Shown: positions 40,120 to 44,391 of the stretch, piece after piece
Position numbering within the stretch: the first letter of the stretch is position 1
Layout of the letters: every line of letters begins with the position of its first letter
Source: Gammaproteobacteria bacterium
Lineage (GTDB): Bacteria; Pseudomonadota; Gammaproteobacteria; S012-40
DNA: 64,000 nt
Assembly (NCBI GenBank): GCA_029881255.1
Contig: JAOUMY010000001.1
Span: 930,001 to 994,000, forward strand
Reading direction: 5' to 3'
Notes under the pieces: generated by a model
Database searches by the model: none
The model's input: the letters and a program-made list of their open reading frames with translations, nothing else
Told to the model about the DNA's origin: nothing
Position numbers and translations under genes: made by a program

Positions 40120-42828
40120 ATGGATATGAAAACGATAAAAACGATTACGCTTCTTACAGGCCTGTCGATAACGCTTTCCGCATGCAATCTTGAAAATTTT
40201 TTAGTAACAATTGAGTACACGGATACAGAAGAACAGCAGGAAATAGTATCGAATACCGTCGTTGGCGATGACCGCGAAGTAGAATCGAGCTCTGATCAAG
40301 AGACTGGTTCGGATGAAAATCAAGAACACAGTCCTCTTCTAGGTACCGTCTCGTACACTTTTCCAGGACCGATAGATTCCGTAGGCCAGAACGAAGTTAC
40401 CGCTGTTCTCCAAATTCAGGAACTCCTCACTGAGACCCCTCTGGCGACGCTGGATGAAATTTCCCACCAACAGTTTGCCGATTTAGGCGATTCAAACGGG
40501 GTATTCTCACCGATCTCCTACCCGACGATATCTCGTTTTCTGAATATTGCCGCCGGAAGGACACTGGCCTCTTTCGATACCTTAGGGGCGGACTGGGGAA
40601 ATCCGACGTCGACGGGTTTGCCTTTGACCTATACAAACCGCATCTGGGCACAAAAAGCGTACCTATTTGCCGAAACATTCCAGGCGTCGATGATTTCGGA
40701 CCTTTCGACTCAGTGGCAGGAGACGGATTTTCTCCTTGGCGCGCGTCCAGACGTGTTAGATATTGCGATGAGCTGGAAAACCCGTGTGGTGTTTCAAAAT
40801 GAAATCGGTTTGCATGCCCAATGGGATGTGCCCGTGTCGGAAATAAGGGAGTTTGACGGGTTATGGCAGGACGGTAGTTCCTACCAGGAGCGGGTGCCAA
40901 TGATCGGCTGGCTGGGTAATTATCCGCGTTACGATCAGGATGGATTTAAAGCCGTGAAGCTGCCTTTGAAAGACGATCAGTTTCAAATGATTGTTGTTAT
41001 GCCTGACGCCGCGTCTTGGTCAGAGACGCAAAGTAATATCGTTCAAATTCTTGGCGATTTCGACAGTCTGGCTACGGAACAGGAAACCCATTTCACATTA
41101 CCTGTGTTTACTACTTCGACGGATTACCAAATAACGCCGTGGATAGATGCCACCGAAAACTTCGCTGGAGTCAATGGTGAAGGGCATCTGAAGCTAAATT
41201 CGTTGCGTAATACGTCAGTGATGGGTGTTGGCGCGTCTGGTGTCTCGGCAAGTACGACTACTACGGTAACGCTAGAGGGAGATGATTCGGAGACGGCCGC
41301 TCAATTCTACGGATACTATCAGGATACTTATGCCGCGGTGTCTGCAATATATGATCTGTACATTTGGGATGCCAGCGGAGGCGGTGGAGTTTCGATCTAT
41401 CCGACAAACATCTGCTCATTGGTAAAAGAAAATCTCAGTTCCAACCAAGCACTACCGTTTATCTTCGTTGTGCAAGAAAAGCAAACAGGCGCTATTGTTA
41501 ATCTTGGAAGAATCAAATCTCTAGAGGGTGAAGAGGTCTATCGCGAGGTGTGCTCTGGCGAAAAACGCCAATACCAGGACAATATCTGGGGGGCAGCAGG
41601 CGATGTGGACCACACCAACACAAGTGATTATCTTTTTGTCACCCAAGACGAAAATACAGCGAACACAGACGAAACGCCAGACGTTTTTAAACAATATGCA
41701 CTCGCGGTTCTTGCATCGACAGAAGGTAATAGTCTGATCTCGCCCTATTTGGATCTTCAATCCAAGTTGCTAATAAATGCAGCGCTGCCAGATGAGGATA
41801 GAGCGGCGTTTCTCTCTGATCTGTCACTAACAGACGTTACTCCTGACCTGTTTAATTCGATACGCCCATTGGACGGGATTGGTAGCGCACGTGTGTTAGT
41901 ACAGTCGGACTATGAGTTGAAGAACGAATACCTTGAGTTGATCGCCAATAGCTGGCAGAGCGCGCCGCTTGTGCGCGATTTTCGTGAATCTCCGACGCAA
42001 GCGCAAGATGAGACAGCGGAATGGTTGTTAACGCACTCGCATCAAGAGATGGCTACCCCTGGTTCTATTGGTATGCGTACTCGTGTGCTGTATAACGCCG
42101 CATTTAGTTCTTCGATTAACCTTACTGGCACATTGACTACGGGTAGCTTTGCGAATGCCGATAGTATTGTTTTCAACGTGCCTATGGTCGCGTTTGAAGG
42201 CGTGTTTCCTGCCTATGCGGCAGAGAACTACGACGCGGTTGAAATAGCAACCAAAGAAGCTAGTCTTGATGTGTTGTTCGTGACGCCTCATCAGGGTAAG
42301 TTTGCGGAGATCAAAGCGAATCTGGCGCAGGTGCTGGCAGATATCGAATCGGGGAAGACCGAACAGGCGATTTCAAGAAAGTTCCCCCAGTTTAGCGCGG
42401 AGCTAAACATGCGCGTCCCCGCTGCTGAGTCTACCGATCTGAAATTTACAAACGCGAGTGGAGTGCGCGGTTTGTATAGTGGTGCCTCATCACAAAAGGC
42501 CCAATTTTCGCTCGGTCAAGACGGCGTGGCAGTTGGATCGCATGCCTGGGCTACACTTAATGCCGCGCCTGATTTTTCCTATTTCGGTTATTTGTCTTTT
42601 GACAATATAGTTAGCGACGCTCAAATATTGTATTCCTGTTCGGTCGACATGCCGAGTTCAGCTGCAGATACGGCACCGTTTTTCTACTTTTTGCGCGACC
42701 GGTCAAGCGGTGTGATTTTACTGGCAGGTCAATACCTAAGAGTTCAGGGCGGCGATCAGAGCTCGTGTTTCGAACCGCAGCCGGGTGCTTTTGACCCTAT
42801 CATCTCCCCCGTTCCCTCTGGTGATTAA
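40120..42828 (+). CDS. tandem serpin-like lipoprotein
   Basis: This 902-residue predicted lipoprotein (SITLSAC, Cys22) contains two serpin folds in a row. Domain 1 (about 85-470) shows NGVFSPISYPTISRFL, LTYTNRIWAQKAY, VPMIGWLGNYPRY, GFKAVKLPLKDDQFQMIVVM and the C-terminal strand LPFIFVVQEKQTGAIVNLGR. Domain 2 (about 520-875) repeats the scheme more loosely: SLISPYLDLQSK, FNVPMVAFEGVFPAY, VEIATKEASLDVLFVTP and APFFYFLRDRSSGVILLAG. In the reactive-centre hinge, domain 1 reads ASGVSASTTTT: Gly P15 and small residues at P12-P9 are kept. Domain 2 reads QDGVAVGSHAW, which is less favourable for inhibition. Start: ATG 40120 (40126 also possible). Bacterial serpins are uncommon, and tandem ones more so. 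Confidence 0.8.
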   Translation: MDMKTIKTITLLTGLSITLSACNLENFLVTIEYTDTEEQQEIVSNTVVGDDREVESSSDQETGSDENQEHSPLLGTVSYTFPGPIDSVGQNEVTAVLQIQELLTETPLATLDEISHQQFADLGDSNGVFSPISYPTISRFLNIAAGRTLASFDTLGADWGNPTSTGLPLTYTNRIWAQKAYLFAETFQASMISDLSTQWQETDFLLGARPDVLDIAMSWKTRVVFQNEIGLHAQWDVPVSEIREFDGLWQDGSSYQERVPMIGWLGNYPRYDQDGFKAVKLPLKDDQFQMIVVMPDAASWSETQSNIVQILGDFDSLATEQETHFTLPVFTTSTDYQITPWIDATENFAGVNGEGHLKLNSLRNTSVMGVGASGVSASTTTTVTLEGDDSETAAQFYGYYQDTYAAVSAIYDLYIWDASGGGGVSIYPTNICSLVKENLSSNQALPFIFVVQEKQTGAIVNLGRIKSLEGEEVYREVCSGEKRQYQDNIWGAAGDVDHTNTSDYLFVTQDENTANTDETPDVFKQYALAVLASTEGNSLISPYLDLQSKLLINAALPDEDRAAFLSDLSLTDVTPDLFNSIRPLDGIGSARVLVQSDYELKNEYLELIANSWQSAPLVRDFRESPTQAQDETAEWLLTHSHQEMATPGSIGMRTRVLYNAAFSSSINLTGTLTTGSFANADSIVFNVPMVAFEGVFPAYAAENYDAVEIATKEASLDVLFVTPHQGKFAEIKANLAQVLADIESGKTEQAISRKFPQFSAELNMRVPAAESTDLKFTNASGVRGLYSGASSQKAQFSLGQDGVAVGSHAWATLNAAPDFSYFGYLSFDNIVSDAQILYSCSVDMPSSAADTAPFFYFLRDRSSGVILLAGQYLRVQGGDQSSCFEPQPGAFDPIISPVPSGD

Positions 42829-42894: not shown

Positions 42895-44391
42895 TTACCA
42901 GAATCGAAACCCCATCCCGAGCGAAAACGTATTCTCCTGGTTGATGTACAGGTTCTTGCCGTAAATTGCACTAAAGGTGAATCCGCTATTGAAGGTGGTA
43001 TCAACGCCAATCGATGGTCTCATCACGACAATTTTCTTGAAATCTCTATCCATTCGATCAATATCAATCGTTGAGAAGTTCTTACTGTTGCCGATTTTTC
43101 GGTAACTGATGCCAGCCTCAATTCCGATGTGGGGTATAAATACGAACGAGCCCAGATGCAGTACCGATGTCGCGTTCTTGAAATCCAGCAGTTGCAGGCG
43201 AAAACTAGCACTATAATCAATCATGTAACTACCATTCTTTCCGGAGACGTAAGCGAATTGCCAGCCTTTTCTGAAGTAGTCATTGAGCGTGTGACGTGAG
43301 ATTCGTACGCCTTCATAGCGCCTGATCCCTAGCGTCGATTTTGCTGGCAAATAGTTTTCATAGTGTACTAACCAGTAGCTGCCGCGTTTGTACTTATCGA
43401 CGAGCCCGATAATCTGTTTCGAGGAGAAGCCGCGATATATCTTTTGTCGCATACCGGGTTTCAATTTAACCTGACCAGTTTTTGTCACCTCCTGATAGGT
43501 GTATGCATAGGCAACCGTGCCCTCGCAACGATTGATAACTTTGTATGTTCCAACGCTTTCCTTTTTGCCATCAACCATAAGCTCTATGTCGGCGAGATTG
43601 GATTGAAAAGACAGTTCGGGAAATCGAAAGCCGTCCAGGTCGTGACTGACTTCATGTTTGTTTAGAGAATGTAATTCGAATTCTCCGTCTATGGGGCAAT
43701 GGCCTATGCTTTCTATTCGATAGCTATGTTTTCCGTTTTCGAGCGCTACATCGCGACCGATGGGAATCTTTGTATCATTGTCCACAGTTATGGTAGCTTC
43801 ACCGCCCTTCACATTGAATCGAACAAACTGGGTGTGTAGCTCCTGCATTAGCGCCTTCTCTATCGAAATTAATTGATGCAGTCTTTCAATTCCCAGGTGT
43901 ACTTGGCCTACAACCGTATACAATCCCCTGGACTGATTGATGTCGTCCATCCACTGTTGCGCAAGTGTTAGGCGAGCCGTAGATGCGTCAGGCAAATTAG
44001 TGGTCGAATATCGCAATTGCTGATCGAGTTTTTTTTGTGCGCATTCCTGCAATTCTTCCATGCCGACTTTTGCGCAATATCGGCCATCCACTTCCTGTTC
44101 TGTTTTGGTGTTACAAAGAAAAATATTAGAGGTTTGCTTGTGCTGTACCGATGTGTGGGTCGAAAAGAAATCGAATATCCCATTTTCAGCAGTATTAGTT
44201 TGACGTTGAAAGCGAGTTTCGACGCCAACAATGAGATTTTTTCCTAACTCGGCCCGGGCCTCATCGGCATCGGCGCCACAGGCAGTAAACTCGGCCGAAT
44301 CATTTGCAAGTGCTGACTTCGTGGCCAAGGTACAAAACATGGCCAATGCCAGGAGAAGTGTCTTTGAATTTGTACCCATATTGCAGTTCAT
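42895..44391 (-). CDS. hypothetical outer-membrane/periplasmic protein
   Basis: The 498-residue product has a signal peptide (TLLLALAMFCTLATKSALA). Residues 40-180 are helical with several Cys (TACGADADEA, IFLCNT, GRYCAKVG, QECAQKK). The middle has two PEGA-like beta-rich repeats (GGEATITVDNDTKIPIGRD and NLADIELMVDGKKESVGTY). The last 150 residues consist of alternating amphipathic strands ending in the aromatic sequence SLGMGFRFW, as in outer-membrane beta-barrels. It is convergent with the serpin-like gene. I do not recognise the family. Confidence 0.65.
   Translation of the reverse strand: MNCNMGTNSKTLLLALAMFCTLATKSALANDSAEFTACGADADEARAELGKNLIVGVETRFQRQTNTAENGIFDFFSTHTSVQHKQTSNIFLCNTKTEQEVDGRYCAKVGMEELQECAQKKLDQQLRYSTTNLPDASTARLTLAQQWMDDINQSRGLYTVVGQVHLGIERLHQLISIEKALMQELHTQFVRFNVKGGEATITVDNDTKIPIGRDVALENGKHSYRIESIGHCPIDGEFELHSLNKHEVSHDLDGFRFPELSFQSNLADIELMVDGKKESVGTYKVINRCEGTVAYAYTYQEVTKTGQVKLKPGMRQKIYRGFSSKQIIGLVDKYKRGSYWLVHYENYLPAKSTLGIRRYEGVRISRHTLNDYFRKGWQFAYVSGKNGSYMIDYSASFRLQLLDFKNATSVLHLGSFVFIPHIGIEAGISYRKIGNSKNFSTIDIDRMDRDFKKIVVMRPSIGVDTTFNSGFTFSAIYGKNLYINQENTFSLGMGFRFW

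Follow-up and report, generated by a model that had tools for sequence, protein, structure and literature searches.

A Two-Domain Serpin Lipoprotein Gene

On the forward strand of the window, by which we mean the whole stretch of 64,000 nucleotides that was analyzed, a reading frame of 902 codons (40120–42825, +) starts with an ATG at 40120, contains no internal stop and is closed by a stop codon that ends at 42828. The product of this gene (40120–42828, +; 902 aa) is almost certainly an envelope lipoprotein with two divergent tandem serpin domains, an identity that rests on its sequence, including Pfam PF00079 matches of both halves, and on its predicted fold. The base composition of the gene resembles that of the neighboring genes. 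The 902-aa protein has no match in NCBIfam, no RNA families were found in the window, and scans for promoters and terminators gave nothing beyond chance level.

The lipoprotein signal peptide (40120–40185, +) consists of MDMKTIKTITLLTGLSITLSA followed by the lipidated Cys22, with an asparagine and not an aspartate at position +2, and its lipobox LSAC follows the pattern [LVI][ASTVI][GAS]C. An acidic tether (residues 23–90; 40186–40389, +), of which the modeled residues 75–90 have a confidence below 50, leads to serpin domain 1 (approximately residues 91–482; 40390–41565, +), in which the helix F region is deleted. Serpin domain 2 (approximately residues 516–884; 41665–42771, +) completes the architecture; the extent of both domains was derived from the profiles and the models. 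Downstream, a gene at 42898–44391 (−) converges on the serpin gene and encodes a protein of 498 aa that begins with a signal-like segment and has neither a Pfam match over the cut-off nor an NCBIfam match.

Identification of the Serpin Domains

A preliminary description of this DNA had read the gene as a tandem serpin lipoprotein on the basis of two successive regions with serpin landmarks. These landmarks (FSPISYPTIS, TNRIWAQ, two VPM strands, PFIFVVQEKQTG and PFFYFLRDRSSG) are all present, as are the hinge string ASGVSASTTTT and the lipobox LSAC. Against a gathering cut-off of 27 bits, PF00079 scored 85.9 bits for the whole protein, and both halves exceeded the cut-off when searched separately (55.4 bits for half 1 and 36.9 bits for half 2). 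An independent serpin profile, built here from 20 other serpins with the target left out, also recovers both domains, with 89.6 bits for the first and 73.1 bits for the second. As judged from these profiles, chance can be dismissed as the source of the match in either half. A comparison of one half with the other also gave a match (22% identity, 60.5 bits, E 3e-14), which makes a duplication reasonable; the internal duplication proposed in the preliminary description agrees with this match, but the tree described below is compatible both with the two halves as closest kin and with another grouping.

The halves were modeled separately with AlphaFold from 14-row alignments, resulting in a pLDDT of 72 and a pTM of 0.71 for domain 1, and a pLDDT of 76.6 and a pTM of 0.78 for domain 2. 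Loci that entered the modeling all came from the search for related loci, and none from the whole-genome search. Confidence in the cores of the models is mostly 80–95, and it is low for the tether and the loop extensions. The top fold matches of both models are exclusively serpins. Compared with solved serpins, domain 1 gave a best Foldseek E of 3e-22 and, with a structural aligner, a Z of 31.3 over 307 residues; the corresponding values for domain 2 are 3e-23 and 34.4 over 341 residues. Both models have the three sheets and the helices of the serpin fold, with domain 1 lacking helix F. A serpin fold is thus predicted for each half, and the tandem reading is borne out by both the Pfam matches and the predicted folds.

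Two residues after the end of strand 5A, each model has a further, separate strand of 14 residues, beginning at P15 (residues 374–387 and 802–815). This extra strand corresponds to the hinge from P15 to P2, GVSASTTTTVTLEG in domain 1 (41239–41280, +) and GVAVGSHAWATLNA in domain 2 (42523–42564, +). The nearest solved chains are in the latent or cleaved state: antithrombin ‘L’ chains, cleaved PAI-1 and loop-inserted ovalbumin, and 1AZX-L is the chain of latent antithrombin (PMC11226102). Judged from secondary structure and best matches and not from coordinates, the reactive-loop hinge is predicted to lie inside sheet A in both domains, as in latent or cleaved serpins. For antithrombin, AlphaFold is reported to lean to the native form even where the relaxed state has been proven (PMC11226102), so that the relaxed models obtained here run against this bias and are not explained by it. 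As the alignments had only 14 rows, the loop insertion may nevertheless be an artefact of their shallow depth.

Reactive Loops, Cysteine Pairs and Hinge Residues

Measured from P15 to strand 4B, the reactive loop comprises 72 residues in domain 1 (41239–41454, +) and 51 residues in domain 2 (42523–42675, +), compared with 24–32 in the ordinary serpins measured and 49–58 in a divergent clade of relatives described below. The domain 1 loop had been recognized as longer than usual at the outset, but its excess is 40–48 residues instead of about 30, and domain 2 is lengthened as well.

The whole protein contains five cysteines, Cys22 of the lipobox and the pairs Cys432/Cys478 and Cys840/Cys883. 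In domain 1, Cys432 (41413–41415, +) precedes strand 4B and Cys478 (41551–41553, +) follows strand 5B, with strands 4B–5B (PFIFVVQEKQTGAIVNLGRIKS; 41455–41520, +) placed from the model and the sequence; in domain 2, Cys840 (42637–42639, +) and Cys883 (42766–42768, +) take the equivalent positions. The cysteines noted earlier on either side of the last strand are therefore found in both domains, with no others except that of the lipobox. Their offsets from strand 4B are −14/+32 and −13/+30 in the target, and −8 and +35 to +40 in the divergent clade, where loop length and Cys pair are common to the six members in which they are measurable.

The hinge of inhibitory serpins from P17 to P9 is close to ExGTEAAAA (PMC8233489), a consensus that neither domain 1 (A-S-G-V-S-A-S-T-T) nor domain 2 (Q-D-G-V-A-V-G-S-H) matches. 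Domain 1 departs from it at P17, P14, P13 and P11–P9; neither domain retains the glutamate at P17, and P14 is aliphatic (Val, Leu or Ile) in 9/9 sequences, comprising both target domains and seven relatives. The earlier view of an inhibitory hinge in domain 1 only thus holds for its small residues but not for the consensus. The residues that would face inward (P14, P12, P10, P8, P6 and P4) are small or hydrophobic in both domains (V A T T V L in domain 1, V V S A A L in domain 2), so domain 2 too would be compatible with insertion. At the shutter, where inhibitory serpins have His334 and Asn186, domain 1 has two asparagines and domain 2 a glutamine and a gap; His334 is replaced by glutamine in 7/7 relatives and present in 12/13 ordinary serpins. 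Helix F, deleted in domain 1, is shortened in the relatives.

These features bear on the possibility that domain 1 still functions as a suicide inhibitor and guards the envelope from secreted serine proteases (the cell’s own subtilisins, or those of neighbors or hosts), with domain 2 as a worn copy serving as a spacer or dimer partner. We regard this as the main alternative, possible but less likely than not. A glycine at P15 and small residues at P13–P7, as in most relatives, would suit such a function, as would the retention of Asn186 and Trp194 in domain 1. Possible targets exist, since the genome has 11 matches to the subtilisin family and 4 to the trypsin family. Precedents are found in miropin, a serpin with inhibitory function from a bacterium that is host-associated (PMC10090351), and in the insect serpin TmSPN93, whose heads trap two different proteases (PMC5691223). 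However, Glu P17, Thr P14 and Ala P11–P9 are lost, the usual P1 position is occupied by an aspartate, which is an unusual P1, and the earlier suggestion that domain 1 could inhibit is further weakened by the change of the shutter His334 to Asn, the deletion of helix F and the loop that is already inserted in the model. Subtilisin counts also do not track the presence of serpins: no link between the two numbers is visible, and one serpin-less relative has 12 subtilisins.

Relatives and Phylogeny

No relatives of the whole protein were found in genome contigs or in plasmids, and the family search gave one weak single-domain match. Of the 13 genomes in the order, just one besides that of the target contains a serpin match, which is single-domain (contig G002:C182). 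Serpins are carried by 11/369 genomes in the class sample and 7/398 in the phylum sample, with the target counted in both, and no further frame with two serpin domains was found in about 760 Pseudomonadota genomes, leaving the target as the only tandem serpin among the Pseudomonadota sampled. The statement that bacterial serpins are rare and single-domain is therefore accurate for this sample, with the target as the only exception in domain number.

Scanning 84,980 species for the divergent type yielded seven loci (L046–L052), all in metagenome-assembled genomes of Gammaproteobacteria; viral relatives of this clade were not found. Like the target, the seven carry a lipobox where the N-terminus is present, and have a lengthened loop (49–58 residues in these relatives), cysteines before strand 4B and after strand 5B, and an aliphatic P14. 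In contrast to the target, they have a single serpin domain and, where complete, an extra C-terminal domain of roughly 90 residues that contains another two cysteines; the target lacks this domain, its chain ending 19 residues after Cys883. The C-terminal domain of L046–L052 has no Pfam match, and its profile also matches frames of 131–135 residues in three genomes (G085, G037 and G142).

In the tree, both target domains group with the seven relatives, in which His334 is Gln, against 13 ordinary serpins with a support of 99/99, and both target branches are long (2.5 and 3.1 changes per site). Topology tests rejected neither a clade of domains 1 and 2 nor a clade of domain 1 with the divergent serpins (p-AU 0.43 and 0.48). 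Taken with the long loop, the cysteines before 4B and after 5B and the aliphatic P14 in both domains, this grouping places the target in a divergent gammaproteobacterial serpin clade. The very long branches would also be expected of a gene that is degenerating, functionless now and kept by chance; we consider this very unlikely, as the frame of 902 codons is free of stops, both halves have their Cys pairs, the lipobox is intact and the fold-determining residues are kept.

Gene Neighborhood and Prc

The gene prc lies 151 bases upstream of the serpin gene on the same strand. Prc belongs to the S41 Ser/Lys proteases and acts on C-termini. Full-length prc occurs in 5/13 genomes of the order, with seven having only shorter S41 peptidase matches and one having no match. 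The adjacency and shared strand of the two genes could indicate that the serpin lipoprotein controls the Prc encoded upstream or undergoes processing by it, and inhibition of Prc had been suggested earlier. This is the least probable of the explanations considered, and we give it hardly any weight. In four relatives with full-length prc (58–64% identity) other genes and no serpin lie downstream, and because the adjacency is not conserved in them the link was rejected. No prc–serpin pair was found in any other genome searched, and no full-length prc turned up in the one other genome of the order that has a serpin. Three other clade members (L047, L048 and L050) adjoin an operon read as MacAB-like ABC-transporter genes, named from sequence. 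In addition, S41 Ser/Lys proteases are a class that, to our knowledge, is not trapped by serpins.

A Possible Pre-relaxed Binding Module

Of the explanations considered we favor, tentatively and at a little short of even probability, a pre-relaxed, non-inhibitory binding module. Here, a single-domain ancestor would have been duplicated into two tandem divergent serpin domains, both of which would fold directly to a relaxed, latent-like conformation in which sheet A already includes the first half of the loop as a strand. The second half, longer than usual by 20–45 residues, could then run back to strand 4B, and the base of the loop would be stapled to the C-terminus of the domain by putative disulfides between Cys432 and Cys478 and between Cys840 and Cys883, as suggested by their positions. 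Instead of a classical suicide inhibitor, the protein would be a stable scaffold, resistant to proteases, from which two long loops are presented to a binding partner in the periplasm or at the cell surface.

We prefer this explanation to a suicide inhibitor in domain 1 because the models are loop-inserted and both hinges are off the inhibitory consensus; with a longer trap loop that has cysteines on both sides and has probably sprung already, a binding module is more likely than a working protease trap. The models would support it by the P15–P2 strand in both domains, by best matches that are latent or cleaved, and by a relaxed state predicted despite the native bias. From the sequences, the loss of His334, the aliphatic P14, the deleted or shortened helix F, and the loop and Cys pair common to the clade point in the same direction. 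On the other hand, Gly/Ser at P15 and small residues at about P12–P8 in domain 1 and in the relatives would suit insertion after cleavage too, which counts against a pre-relaxed module.

Extended to the clade, the proposal is that a serpin lineage gave up trapping and folds straight to the loop-inserted state by means of a longer, Cys-stapled second half of the loop, one member having been duplicated into a two-headed surface receptor; this is more doubtful than the binding module itself. Serpins are a textbook case of a protein held in a strained state for its function. If true, bacteria would have a natural lineage in which folding leads straight to the relaxed state. Such a lineage would show how a protein can dispense with strain, and would offer a clean test of the features that hold it (shutter His, P14, helix F and loop length).

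Comparison With Known Serpins

Serpins in bacteria are already known (PMC8233489; PMC10090351), as are twin-domain serpins in insects, such as TmSPN93 (PMC5691223); the literature search, with most subscription journals outside it, brought up neither a tandem bacterial serpin nor the divergent clade. With the canonical prokaryotic serpins (chloropin, miropin and others; groups S–U, Spence et al., 2021, PMC8233489) the target shares the serpin fold, and most of these have an N-terminal transport signal, but all those compared have a single domain, an ExGTEAAAA-type hinge and a P15-to-4B loop of 24–32 residues. The ordinary serpins measured lack a Cys pair of the target type round the last hairpin, with one of them (L024) having cysteines at −40 and +36. 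The insect twin-domain serpins TmSPN93 and PpSPI3 (PMC5691223) likewise have two serpin domains per chain, but TmSPN93 is an insect protein of which both heads trap proteases of the Toll cascade (PMC5691223), and the insect and bacterial tandem serpins are presumably independent duplications. The predicted conformation of the target best matches relaxed-state serpins, a likeness to latent antithrombin, tengpin and latent conserpin; in these, latency arises from a native active state, whereas insertion in the target would be constitutive and its loop is much longer.

Several other serpin loci were encountered in the course of this work. At L022 (6195–7724, +; contig G347:C1), a lipoprotein serpin matches the profile in the order 13–276, 390–421 (the Cys-flanked 4B–5B hairpin) and 283–317. 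The normally terminal hairpin thus sits mid-chain and the chain continues from the hinge as a free C-terminal tail, so that this protein looks like a topologically permuted serpin. Two loci (L025, 3909–5381; L029, 1783–4326) encode ordinary lipoprotein serpins of genome G188 beside genes whose start, as read from sequence, appears caspase-like (RALIIGINAYEGDNALEGCRTDAENMERVV), a putative bacterial neighborhood of serpin and caspase-like genes. At L053 (1573–7230), a serpin domain lies within a frame of 1886 codons on a 128 kb IMG/VR contig.
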